DNA from: a virus | DNA: 26,686 bases | Strand: one strand, 5' to 3' | IMG/VR virus record: IMGVR_UViG_3300028025_000461 | Span: 1-26,686 of that record | Part shown: positions 671 through 3,651 of the stretch, in pieces | How positions within the stretch are numbered: position 1 is the stretch's first letter | Layout of the letters: each line of letters opens with the position of its first letter | Position numbers and translations under genes: made by a program | The notes under the pieces: generated by a model | What the model was told of the DNA's origin: nothing | Databases searched by the model: none | What the model saw: only the letters and a program-made list of their open reading frames with translations

Positions 671-820
671 TTAAAAACAGTTTGTTGTGCAACTGCTGCC
701 ATAACAACAGGTTGTACAAGTGACGATTCGCCCACCAGACATGATGGTGTGAGTCGTACACGATGCCCAAACCATAGTCACTGCCAAACTCAACCAAACC
801 CCAATAATTGCCTTTTTCAT
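671..820 (-). CDS. Small Cys-rich secreted or lipoprotein peptide
   Basis: A 49-residue gene with a very strong Shine-Dalgarno sequence (AAAGGAG, seven bases before the ATG). Its start overlaps the stop of the upstream winged-helix gene as ATGA (817-820), which argues for coupled translation. The protein starts MKKAIIGVWLSLAVTMVWAS, a basic N-terminus and hydrophobic core typical of a signal peptide. Then comes a lipobox-like WAS|C at Cys21, although the Trp at -3 is atypical. The mature part holds Cys21, 35, 38, 39, 44 and 48, with three Cys-Thr-Thr triplets (SCTTHT, TCTTCC, SCTTNC) and a C-terminal Phe. I do not recognise a characterised family. Location in the envelope is inferred; binding of metal or disulfide bonding is possible. 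Confidence 0.7.
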   Translation of the reverse strand: MKKAIIGVWLSLAVTMVWASCTTHTIMSGGRIVTCTTCCYGSSCTTNCF

Positions 821-1191
821 GCTTGCTCTCCTTTGTGATAAATCAAATTGTCGCCAAAGCGACTTGGATACTTCAGAAAATCATAGCAACCCTGCCGAAA
901 CACATTTCTCCGCAGTTCTTTGCCATCATAGATTTCTTTGACAGACCCATTCTCAATCCGCATGGCTGCACCACTGATAGCCCGATTCATCTCCATGCGC
1001 CCGTACTCAGTCAGATGCCACTTCTCCTGATGGTTGATGACATAGCCGAACCTCTCCAGTTCAGGCAAGTATCTTTGATAGTGGAACGATACAGAGTTGT
1101 TGTCTGTATGGCTGTGGGTCATCTCTAGCATTGTCCTTGGGCCATTAGATAGGCGCTTGAGCAGTGTTCGATGGGTGAGGTTTAAACGCAT
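817..1191 (-). CDS. Winged-helix-like putative regulator
   Basis: A 124-residue protein starting at an ATG at 1191, preceded by AAGGA at suitable spacing. Residues of about 3-75 read like a winged-helix fold: LTHRTLLKRLSNGPRTMLEM, then a helix, then YLPELERFGYVINHQEKWHLTEYGRMEM, where the GYV-x-WHLTEYG part resembles a beta wing. It is the first gene of the leftward early unit and diverges from the rightward early operon across the 1192-1325 control region. That position suits a repressor or activator of one or both units. DNA binding is inferred from the fold-like pattern; no specific family was recognised. Confidence 0.6.
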   Translation of the reverse strand: MRLNLTHRTLLKRLSNGPRTMLEMTHSHTDNNSVSFHYQRYLPELERFGYVINHQEKWHLTEYGRMEMNRAISGAAMRIENGSVKEIYDGKELRRNVFRQGCYDFLKYPSRFGDNLIYHKGEQA

Positions 1192-1241: not shown

Positions 1242-1260
1242 TAGGGAAAACACCTATTCC
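1242..1260. promoter_or_regulatory. Repeated early-region motif, copy 1
   Basis: TAGGGAAAACACCTATTCC. Its first 16 bases recur exactly at 2132-2147, and a 16-of-19 variant lies at 3426-3444. This copy sits in the divergent region just downstream of the candidate rightward promoter. It also contains an AGGGAA/TTCCCT inverted repeat when extended to 1262. It is a candidate operator. Confidence 0.5.
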
Positions 1261-1290
1261 CTGCATCTTTTTTCTGTGCGAAAGTCCTAT

Positions 1291-1308
1291 CACTGCAATA
1301 ACGCAGTG
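1291..1308. promoter_or_regulatory. Perfect inverted repeat CACTGC-N6-GCAGTG
   Basis: CACTGC (1291-1296) and GCAGTG (1303-1308) flank AATAAC. The palindrome lies 17 bases before the ATG of the first rightward gene, just ahead of its AGGAG. It could be an operator or, in the transcript, a hairpin that affects access to the ribosome site. Confidence 0.45.
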
Positions 1309-1325
1309 GTCAACAGGAGTTACAA

Positions 1326-1676
1326 ATGCCAACCGATGAAGAAAGATTTAAGTACGAGTGCTGGGCGATTGTCCAGGAGTTAGACCCAGAAGACATTGCC
1401 GATGCCATTGGTGACAGCATTGCTCTGGTGGAGGCCATCAAAGCAAACCATGCTGAAGATGTTGCAAGCATCGTGATGAAGCGAGTAGAACTCAAGGTTC
1501 GCCGCAGGGCTGAGTTGCGAGTGTTTGATGTTGTCAAGACCGCTTGGATTGATGACATTGAAGAACTCCAGCACTATCGCAATCTCCGCATTGAACGAGT
1601 CCAAAAAGCCCTTGAAGAACGCAAGATCATGGAAGCTAAAATGGATGCCCCTTTTCGACAAATGTTTGACGAGTGA
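1326..1676 (+). CDS. Hypothetical early protein (acidic N-terminus, helical)
   Basis: A 116-residue protein and the first gene of the rightward early operon. The ATG at 1326 follows AGGAGTTACAA, a strong ribosome site that is repeated almost word for word before the ERF gene. The N-terminal third is acidic (EERFKYECWAIVQELDPEDIADAIGDS). The rest is rich in Arg, Glu and Lys and looks alpha-helical (ELKVRRRAELRVFDVV, IERVQKALEERKIMEAKM). No domain is recognised. Being first after the control region, it is probably among the earliest made proteins. Function unknown. Confidence 0.75.
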   Translation: MPTDEERFKYECWAIVQELDPEDIADAIGDSIALVEAIKANHAEDVASIVMKRVELKVRRRAELRVFDVVKTAWIDDIEELQHYRNLRIERVQKALEERKIMEAKMDAPFRQMFDE

Positions 1677-1683
1677 GGATGAT

Positions 1684-1896
1684 ATGAAAATGAAATCACG
1701 CTTGCAAGACATTATTGAGGAATACACAGATGAGTTATCACATGAGTCCAATTGTTCTGCTGAAAACGGCATTCAAGTCGATTGCATCCTATTTCGAGAT
1801 TTGGACACCACTTCCCAACTCAGATACATCGCAGAAAAAGAGAAAGAAAATTCCAGCAAGGATGACCTACCCTTCAGTCTCAATCACAGACCCTAG
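1684..1896 (+). CDS. Hypothetical small early protein
   Basis: A 70-residue reading frame starting MKMKSRLQDIIEEYTDELSH, seven bases after the previous stop with GAGG before the ATG at 1684. It is acidic and hydrophilic with two Cys residues (SNCSAEN, DCILFRD). An upstream extension in this frame runs antisense-free through the preceding gene and is unlikely to be used. The 3' end overlaps the next predicted gene in another frame. No family was recognised. Confidence 0.55.
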   Translation: MKMKSRLQDIIEEYTDELSHESNCSAENGIQVDCILFRDLDTTSQLRYIAEKEKENSSKDDLPFSLNHRP

Positions 1897-2062
1897 ATTT
1901 GTATATACAAATCACGCAAACACTGACATATCTCAAACATTTGAAAAGGCAAAACATGAGCGACTTCAACGACTACAGCACAATGCTGATGGCAATCGAA
2001 AACAAGACCAAGGCACTGAGCAGCAAATGCCTGTCAAAAAACTACGCAGGGTTCACGGGTGA
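1862..2062 (+). CDS. Hypothetical small phage protein with DPRFVYT motif
   Basis: A 66-residue frame whose N-terminal half, SVSITDPRFVYTNHANTD followed by ISQTFEKAKHERLQRLQ, resembles a short module I associate with small proteins of Burkholderiales phages: a 'DPxFxY' stretch, then 'TDIxxTFxxAR'. The start is uncertain. ATG at 1862 has AAGG directly against it, which is poor. ATG at 1730 has GAGGA at good spacing but would overlap the previous gene almost entirely and give 110 residues. It overlaps the next gene by 107 bases in another frame. The family likeness is from memory. Confidence 0.45.
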   Translation: MTYPSVSITDPRFVYTNHANTDISQTFEKAKHERLQRLQHNADGNRKQDQGTEQQMPVKKLRRVHG

Positions 2063-2168
2063 CATAACTGCAATCCAGCATGAACTCACTATGCTGACAA
2101 TGTGGATCACACAAGCACAAGGAGAGCAAATTAGGGAAAACACCTATAGAATTCTCAACAAAGTCTGA
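1956..2168 (+). CDS. Hypothetical small helical protein
   Basis: A 70-residue frame starting MSDFNDYSTMLMAIENKTKA at ATG 1956, with AAAAGG upstream. The sequence is helix-prone (ITAIQHELTMLTMWITQAQ) and ends RILNKV. It overlaps the preceding frame by 107 bases. The repeated motif TAGGGAAAACACCTAT lies within its 3' end at 2132-2147. No domain is recognised. Either this or the overlapping frame could be spurious, although both have plausible composition. Confidence 0.5.
   Translation: MSDFNDYSTMLMAIENKTKALSSKCLSKNYAGFTGDITAIQHELTMLTMWITQAQGEQIRENTYRILNKV
2132..2147. promoter_or_regulatory. Repeated early-region motif, copy 2
   Basis: TAGGGAAAACACCTAT, an exact 16-base match to 1242-1257. It lies at the end of the preceding small gene and 53 bases before the ERF start codon. 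This position would suit an operator or activator site for the ERF and SSB-like gene pair. Confidence 0.5.
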
Positions 2169-2199
2169 CACAATTAAATCTCACTTAACAGGAGTTACT

Positions 2200-2811
2200 A
2201 TGAATGTATATCAAAAACTGAACGAGGCGCGTGATGAATTTCACCAAGCCAAACTTAAGAAATCAGGTCACAACAAGTTTGCAAATTACTACTATTTTGA
2301 ACTTGGTGACTTTGTAATCCCAGCACTAGAAATCTTCAAGCAAATTGGCTTGACTTCCATCATCAGCTTTGGCAAAGAAGAAGCCAGCATGACGATTGTG
2401 AACAACGACAAGCCAGAAGAAAAGATCGTTCTGACAAGCCCAATGTCTTCTGCGGCTCTCAAGGGTTGCCATGAAGTGCAGAACCTGGGCGCTGTTCAGA
2501 CCTACCTGCGCCGCTATCTCTGGGTGGCTGCCCTTGAGATTGTTGAGCATGATGCCTTGGATGGCACTGTTGGCTCAGAGAAGAAGACTATCAAGCCCAC
2601 TGATGGCGTGATTGTCTCCAAGGACAGGCAGAACATCATTGCAGATGTTGCGATTGCCATTGCCGACAGAATCAACGCAGATGACTTGATCGGGGCTTAT
2701 GAGGAATACCTGGGAATCCATGACCAGGAGGAAAAGGTGGCGCTTTGGGCATTGCTTCCAAGTAATGTTCGCAGCGCATTGAAAAAACATGGTGAATCAT
2801 TGAAAGGCTAA
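2200..2811 (+). CDS. erf: ERF-family single-strand annealing recombinase
   Basis: A 203-residue protein of the ERF superfamily, like P22 Erf. These proteins bind single-stranded DNA and anneal complementary strands, acting in recombination and circularisation or repair of phage DNA. Signature parts are visible: NKFANYYYFELGDF (about residues 25-38) and HEVQNLGAVQTYLRRYLWVA (about 91-110), followed by ALEIVEHDALDG. The latter is the most typical ERF stretch. The C-terminal third (from about 140) is more variable and helical. The ATG at 2200 has AGGAG seven bases upstream. An SSB-like gene follows after one base, the usual pairing of an annealase with a single-strand binding partner. No exonuclease gene is visible in the window. 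Confidence 0.92.
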   Translation: MNVYQKLNEARDEFHQAKLKKSGHNKFANYYYFELGDFVIPALEIFKQIGLTSIISFGKEEASMTIVNNDKPEEKIVLTSPMSSAALKGCHEVQNLGAVQTYLRRYLWVAALEIVEHDALDGTVGSEKKTIKPTDGVIVSKDRQNIIADVAIAIADRINADDLIGAYEEYLGIHDQEEKVALWALLPSNVRSALKKHGESLKG

Positions 2812-2812
2812 T

Positions 2813-3052
2813 ATGGAAAAGAAAAACAACTCAGGAGTTTTGTTCAAGTCGGACAAAAAGGAAACAGCTAACCATCCTGATTACAAAGGAAATATAACTG
2901 TTGATGGGGTGGATTATTGGTTGAGTGCTTGGATTAAAGAAGGAAAGAATGGCAAGTTCATGGGCTTGGCAGTCAATCCCAAGGATGCACAGCCTCCAGC
3001 GTCTAATCCACGCAAGGCAAAAGACATTGATGATTCGGACATTCCCTTTTGA
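2813..3052 (+). CDS. SSB-like protein with acidic DIPF tail
   Basis: A 79-residue protein starting two bases after the ERF stop codon's first overlap-free position, so translation is probably coupled. The body contains HPDYKGNITVDGVDYWLSAW followed by IKEGKNGKFMGLAVNP, a compact beta-rich pattern seen in small phage proteins that accompany annealases. The last nine residues are DIDDSDIPF, which copies the acidic D-D-x-I-P-F tail by which bacterial SSB recruits partner proteins. I infer single-stranded DNA binding and partner recruitment from the tail and from the position beside ERF. A canonical OB fold cannot be confirmed by eye. Confidence 0.75.
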   Translation: MEKKNNSGVLFKSDKKETANHPDYKGNITVDGVDYWLSAWIKEGKNGKFMGLAVNPKDAQPPASNPRKAKDIDDSDIPF

Positions 3053-3062
3053 TAAACCTCAC

Positions 3063-3080
3063 GGGGCTACGGCCCCATTT
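3063..3080 (+). terminator. Candidate hairpin terminator after SSB-like gene
   Basis: GGGGC (3063-3067), loop TACG, GCCCC (3072-3076), then ATTTAAT. The stem is short but all G-C. The following T-tract is weak, so partial termination is more likely than a full stop. Confidence 0.45.
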
Positions 3081-3094
3081 AATAGGAGTTGATG

Positions 3095-3433
3095 ATGACA
3101 AAATTAGATCAATCTTGGTTTGGTGGTGCAGTCGAAAAGTTCTTTGGAACTGCGCCGTTTAAACTGTCTCGCAAAGAAGACCCTGCCACTTCCCACATGG
3201 CAGCACAGGCAATCGACACCACAAAGATGGAGTCCTTGGTCTATGAAACCATTGCAGCCTATGGCCCAGATGGTTGTATCTCAGATGATGTACTTGCCAA
3301 ACTAGCATTCCTGCCCTATTCCAGCGTCACAGCCCGATACAAGGCGCTGATTGACAAAGGCTTCATCGAGGTCATTGGAACCCGTAAAGGGCTTTCTGGG
3401 CGACTCCAAAGGGTTATGCGTAAGATAGGGTAA
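3095..3433 (+). CDS. Winged-helix phage protein (DPATSH type)
   Basis: About 112 residues. Three in-frame start codons follow AGGAG (TTG 3089, ATG 3092, ATG 3095). ATG 3095 has the best spacing. Near residue 25 comes SRKEDPATSHMAAQA, a motif commonly seen just ahead of a winged-helix domain in phage proteins. The remainder (LVYETIAAYGPDGCISDDV, then TARYKALIDKGFIEVIGTRKG and a C-terminal RLQRVMRKIG) fits a helix-turn-helix plus wing. DNA binding is inferred. A role in regulating phage or host transcription, or in modulating replication, is possible but not shown. Confidence 0.65.
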   Translation: MTKLDQSWFGGAVEKFFGTAPFKLSRKEDPATSHMAAQAIDTTKMESLVYETIAAYGPDGCISDDVLAKLAFLPYSSVTARYKALIDKGFIEVIGTRKGLSGRLQRVMRKIG

Positions 3434-3444
3434 ATCCCTATTCC
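3426..3444. promoter_or_regulatory. Repeated early-region motif, copy 3 (variant)
   Basis: TAGGGTAAATCCCTATTCC, matching copy 1 at 16 of 19 positions. With the A before it, this copy forms a perfect inverted repeat, ATAGGG-TAAAT-CCCTAT. It begins in the stop codon region of the winged-helix gene and precedes the next small gene. Confidence 0.5.
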
Positions 3445-3474
3445 AATCTCTGTCAGACAAGGCAGAATTGGCGC

Positions 3475-3651
3475 ATGAACCAACAACAAACCAATCGTTT
3501 AAACGCTTTCTGGCAGGATGTGGAGGCTCACAAGGCTCTTAATCCATCCTCGCCAGAGAGTGCCCTTGTAGTCCTTAAATCTGTGGCCCTGGATGCTCTC
3601 CTTGCCGCACAAGACATTGAACAGATAGGAGTGAATGATGCAAACAATTGA
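3475..3651 (+). CDS. Hypothetical 58-residue protein
   Basis: A short frame starting MNQQQTNRLNAFWQDVEAHK, with ATG at 3475 in the first gap after the third motif copy. The ribosome site is weak (AAGGCAG about 12 bases upstream). The protein is helix-prone and mildly hydrophobic in the second half (SALVVLKSVALDALLAAQDI). It overlaps the next start by 14 bases. No family recognised. It fills an otherwise empty stretch in the operon direction, which is the main reason to accept it. Confidence 0.55.
   Translation: MNQQQTNRLNAFWQDVEAHKALNPSSPESALVVLKSVALDALLAAQDIEQIGVNDANN

Follow-up and report, generated by a model that had tools for sequence, protein, structure and literature searches.

The Escherichia coli regulator CRP recognizes TGTGA-N6-TCACA, the early promoter of phage Mu requires the host protein IHF, and the staphylococcal LuxR-type response regulator NreC recognizes TAGGG-N4-CCCTA. 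CRP sites in E. coli are located at -41.5 in class II and at -61.5 in class I promoters (PMC5957442), and the consensus of E. coli Lrp is YAGHAWATTWTDCTR (PMC5554404 and others). The phage locus described here carries a repeated box that can be compared with each of these systems. As at CRP promoters, the predicted location of the box is either near -42, where the -35 hexamer is poor, or farther upstream along the same face of the helix, where the -35 hexamer is better, but TAGGK-N5-MCCTA is not a CRP site and the upstream positions fall near -52 and -63. If, as we propose, these phages start early transcription with a host protein, they resemble Mu with IHF; here, however, many unrelated phages have the one box in common, and that they depend on a host protein is something that we infer. 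Lrp/AsnC sites resemble the box in consensus only: both are 15 bases long, have YAG and CTR as their outer letters, and are A/T-rich at the center, but positions 4 to 5 and 11 to 12 are GG and MC in the box. The half-site letters of the NreC site are identical to those of the box, whereas the spacer of the box is 5 bases and NreC belongs to another phylum. The resemblances to Lrp/AsnC-type and LuxR-type sites may serve as leads to the protein that reads the box.

The window, meaning the whole stretch of DNA that was analyzed, is an IMG/VR virus record of 26,686 bases. Its boxes and the genes around them are as follows.

817 to 1191, minus strand: divergent protein, predicted winged helix (fold prediction and weak family matches)
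1242 to 1256, plus strand: box 1, TAGGGAAAACACCTA, between the divergent gene at 817 to 1191 (minus strand) and the operon from 1326
2132 to 2146, plus strand: box 2, TAGGGAAAACACCTA, in the 3' codons of the ORF at 1956 to 2168, ahead of the Erf gene
2200 to 2811, plus strand: Erf-type single-strand annealing protein (Pfam PF04404, phrog_155), first gene behind box 2
2813 to 3052, plus strand: small single-strand DNA-binding protein (SSB; phrog_18154)
3092 to 3433, plus strand: small protein with a weak winged-helix signal (sequence searches and prediction)
3426 to 3440, plus strand: box 3, TAGGGTAAATCCCTA, overlapping the end, including the stop codon, of the ORF at 3092 to 3433

A portal protein is also encoded in the window. 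The product of 817-1191, for which a winged helix was predicted over the first 73 residues and which gave weak MarR/PadR-like matches, is probably a winged-helix protein over that portion. Three runs of six G's were also observed within about 30 bases at positions 223 to 249.

A scan of the whole window bore out the 16-mer that the initial annotation had reported, TAGGGAAAACACCTAT, which is exact at 1242-1257 and 2132-2147. The third copy, at 3426-3441, is TAGGGTAAATCCCTAT, with 3 mismatches to TAGGGAAAACACCTAT; the agreement of copies 1 and 3 at 16 of 19 positions had been counted correctly. Copy 3 had also been called a perfect palindrome, but only its arms, TAGGG and CCCTA, are perfectly inverted, and the central TAAAT is not self-complementary. 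The three copies lie, as had been described, upstream of three gene groups, which begin at 1326, at 2200 (Erf and SSB), and at 3475. At up to 3 mismatches, no further site for TAGGGAAAACACCTAT was found in all 26,686 bases. Across 100 dinucleotide shuffles of the window, 0.29 ± 0.46 matches were obtained per shuffle and three matches were reached in none, in line with the earlier judgment that such a 16-base repeat is unlikely by chance. With the shuffles, the conservation, and the placement in unrelated phages all against it, the probability that the repeat is a chance match is negligible.

Use of the Erf protein as a query retrieved 80 related viral loci. In a close group, represented by 25 to 26 distinct versions per site, all three boxes were kept. 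Among the approximately 26 relatives, the invariant columns numbered 15 of 15 in box 1, 14 of 15 in box 2, and 12 of 15 in box 3. The flanks were invariant at 27 of 45 upstream and 33 of 60 downstream positions at site 1, at 6 of 45 and 10 of 60 positions at site 2, and at 13 of 45 and 45 of 60 positions at site 3, where downstream conservation is high because the sequence is coding and would be conserved anyway. The clearest conserved island is site 2. Most of the more distant Erf phages lacked the box; in some, it was found several hundred bases upstream of the Erf gene, in the space between divergent genes. At one locus (L022, 3154 to 3198), two boxes, one of them TAGGGAAAATACCTA, were observed in tandem ahead of the Erf gene at a distance of 30 bases. 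Erf relatives in bacterial genomes comprised five loci, none with a box.

An IMG/VR scan with the core TAGGGWAAACACCTA alone returned at least 120 stretches, from phages of diverse gene content. The counts for the core and for the reversed pattern were both only lower bounds, so that the raw counts are no evidence, and placement was compared instead. Of the 98 non-redundant core matches listed, 19% lay in ORFs of at least 60 codons, compared to 92% of 74 reversed-pattern matches (Fisher, P < 1e-15). The sequence of box 3, TAGGGTAAATCCCTA, was likewise located in ORFs in 20% of 45 occurrences in unrelated phage contigs and outside them in 80%. A downstream element, CCTAGAAAATAATTNTTG, was found in 82 stretches (12 for its reverse), and about 39 of 45 non-redundant stretches with this element had upstream either TAGGG...CCTA, a sequence differing from it by one letter, or TAGGTG...CCTA, with variable, A/T-rich inner bases. 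The conserved unit is the 15-mer TAGGK-N5-MCCTA. In other phages, the A/T-rich sequence GAAAATAATT often lies between the box and the -35 hexamer. This tract resembles an UP element and would suit a reading of the box as an intrinsic RNA polymerase element that acts with no further protein, but the invariant TAGGG...CCTA is not rich in A/T, and it is retained at each of three distances and, in the window, where the A/T tract is missing; such a reading is very improbable.

Two isolates also carry the motif: Limnohabitans phage DC31 contains TAGGGTAAACACCTAGAAAATAATT exactly, and Xylophilus phage Lumi contains GAGGGTAAACCCCTAGAAAATA near both ends of its genome, for which terminal repeats have been reported (PMC9959647). 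The box was sought in Polaromonas phage Tiera and Caulobacter phage Kuura and was found in neither. A scan of a plasmid collection gave unrelated partial matches only, and a search of the literature on the motif or on box promoters found nothing direct. The largest number of boxes among the records examined, six separate ones, was on a 37-kb contig (IMGVR_UViG_3300010933_000005; G606, with loci L327 and L328). A different sequence, TAGGGTAAACACCTATTGAC, was present in the G/C-rich contigs L095 (three times), L133, L137, and L195, with no clear -10 hexamer downstream, and may be another kind of element.

The initial annotation had named lack of enrichment near gene starts in related genomes, or frequent occurrence in late genes, as the outcome that would count against a regulatory set. 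In relatives and unrelated phages, the boxes were mostly intergenic and upstream of predicted promoters, and in the late region of the window a scan to 3 mismatches found none.

The positions of predicted promoter hexamers relative to the box were examined. The Rayleigh test did not separate the periods, with few control points, and histograms and bins were therefore used. Predicted -35 hexamers started predominantly 0 to 1, 10 to 12, 20 to 23, and 31 to 32 bases past the box. Starts fell within these bins in 39 of 53 cases in the first set, from which the bins were drawn, in 16 of 27 cases in the set defined by the box 3 sequence, which is hence the fairer test (P = 1.6e-4), and in 4 of 17 control cases. 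The -10 pattern TAnnnT peaked 22 to 23 bases past the box (21% of boxes versus 3% of the control), with further peaks at 32 to 34 and, weaker, at about 44 to 46 bases. TAnnnT and -35 quality were counted only in sets whose selection took no account of the downstream sequence, with contigs selected for a downstream TTG left out. With the first -10 base taken as -12, the box centers fall near -42, -52, and -63 relative to the predicted starts. As in class I and class II sigma70 promoters, the box is thus placed near -41.5 or upstream on the same helix face. A good -35 hexamer (at least 5 positions of TTGACA) was present at 1 of 33 class II placements, where the hexamer is generally poor, versus 18 of 50 class I placements (P = 3.5e-4).

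Helical phasing and a weak -35 hexamer beside the box are the expected marks of an activator that contacts RNA polymerase, and they point to activation here. Repressors, too, typically use inverted repeats near promoters, and a Cro-like gene lies beside the box at some loci (L107), as might be seen if the boxes were repressor operators that shut off the early promoters. However, repressor sites need neither helical phasing upstream of the -35 hexamer nor a weak adjacent -35 hexamer, and the majority of boxes are upstream of the promoter core instead of spanning it, which makes repression improbable. Of the earlier suggestion of a phage operator or activator set, the general idea stood, with phasing and the weak adjacent -35 hexamer favoring its activator half; the protein named as reader was not supported. 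We infer that the boxes activate and do not repress, where the transcripts start, and that the reader comes from the host. A box followed by a phased promoter should provide a practical marker for early promoters in metagenomic phage contigs.

In the window, candidate promoter cores were recognized directly behind the three boxes, together with a hairpin.

1257 to 1285, plus strand: predicted class II core of box 1, with TTCCCT at 1257-1262 (-35), 17 bases, and GAAAGT at 1280-1285 (-10); inferred start at about 1292
1291 to 1308, plus strand: hairpin CACTGC-aataac-GCAGTG (from sequence), at the inferred 5' end of the first transcript
2147 to 2174, plus strand: predicted class II core of box 2, with TAGAAT at 2147-2152 and CACAAT at 2169-2174; inferred start at about 2181
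3441 to 3468, plus strand: predicted class II core of box 3, with TTCCAA at 3441-3446 and CAGAAT at 3463-3468; inferred start at 3475

The putative -10 hexamer of box 1 is offset 23 bases from the box end, and relatives have GACAGT, GAAAGT, or AATAGT at this place. Those of boxes 2 and 3 are offset 22 bases; most relatives have CACAAT or CAAAAT at box 2, and CAGAAT is invariant in 25 relatives at box 3. The hexamers in the window fit the consensus only in part, so that their role as -10 elements is putative, and the predicted sites fit the class II form. If CAGAAT is a -10 hexamer, the transcript of the ORF at 3475-3651 would be leaderless, starting at the A of the ATG at 3475. Hairpins with a stem of at least 6 at the predicted start were found in 15% of phased promoters, compared to 4% of shuffles, and are possibly protective 5' ends. 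A hairpin just past the predicted -10 hexamer was also observed at L127, L162, L198, L236, L572, and L622. The stems of these start hairpins vary (CACTGC, ATGGC, CATCGC, GTGTTC), and the loop often begins with AAT or AAC.

Two neighboring phage proteins, both named as candidates in the initial annotation, were considered as readers of the boxes. Boxes that act as operators of the 817-1191 or the 3092-3433 protein would be consistent with the predicted winged helix of both and with their constant position beside the boxes in the close group. Both families are nearly missing from other box-bearing phages, however: the 817-1191 family was found in none of 21 other near-complete box-bearing phages and in 7 of the 120 box-found loci listed, and the 3092-3433 family, rejected as reader likewise, was found in 1 of the 21 and in 8 of the 120 listed. 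The latter family was present mostly at Erf loci without the box (20 of 21 distant Erf loci longer than 7 kb). That either protein is the reader has little probability.

When 1,495 ORFs of 22 box-bearing phages were clustered, no common family was found except repetitive tail proteins (in 20), and no regulator common to all box-bearing phages was detectable by BLAST. Because no family is common to the 22 phages and the local candidates are scattered, a conserved phage-encoded reader is unlikely. The reader could still be encoded by the phages if its sequence had diverged too far, or were too short, for BLAST to unite it as one family; small DNA-binding proteins diverge fast, the contigs are partly incomplete, and bacterial genomes almost entirely lack the extended element (the box with GAAAATA). 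Yet the box is near-identical across phages while every regulator differs, and phage DC31, the smallest set, has a single box but no regulator that matches one of the others at E 1e-4. We consider this alternative unlikely, with a probability well short of even; were it true, it would mean an unrecognized regulator family with a strikingly constant site.

With no common phage regulator, a host protein is the simplest thing that these phages could have in common, and the isolates DC31 and Lumi, from Limnohabitans and Xylophilus, fit a host-encoded reader. We therefore favor, at slightly better than even confidence and from sequence comparison, the reading that the boxes are activator sites which unrelated freshwater phages share on their early promoters and which are most likely read by a host protein. 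A dimeric activator would bind the inverted repeat TAGGK-N5-MCCTA and would help sigma70 RNA polymerase to start the three early operons. In the window, the box would abut a weak -35 hexamer with its center near -42, the class II position; in other phages, it would act from the class I position, upstream by another one or two turns of the helix, with a better -35 hexamer. Many unrelated freshwater phages would in this manner exploit a host activator to switch on their early genes. More tentatively, a single activator of freshwater Burkholderiales hosts could be the common early-gene switch of many unrelated phages that acquired the same box at class I and class II positions, and its loss could then confer resistance to many phages at once. 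If so, the host activator would be a vulnerability common to these phages and would help to tell which bacteria uncultured phages infect.

Burkholderiales genomes were searched for the same elements. Against a host reader, the extended element was essentially absent, with an occurrence in 1 of 294 genomes sampled, at 2 mismatches, and the exact core gave 5 matches in 300 genomes, which is near chance; these lay outside annotated-length ORFs as far as seen. The extended and downstream elements gave only chance matches in 200 genomes, most of them inside genes. The palindrome TAGGG-N5-CCCTA occurred 6 times in one genome (G058), versus 0 for the reversed pattern, and 50 versus 11 times in the 61 genomes of its Burkholderiales family. 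The recurring host palindromes represent at least two differently organized elements, may be bound by proteins other than the box reader, and are only suggestive as support for a host regulon. The sequence TAGGGCATTCCCCTAGTG was conserved in seven genomes (L638, L639, L640, L643, L649, L658, and L659), where a conserved stretch, GGTGCANAAT...CATGCAGGTGAGGAGAC or similar, comes after it, and it is probably a separate host regulatory element. A different palindrome, TAGGGTAATACCCTA, was observed in approximately ten Burkholderiales genomes (G121, G227, G160, G095, and others) and was twice paired at a distance of 139 bases.
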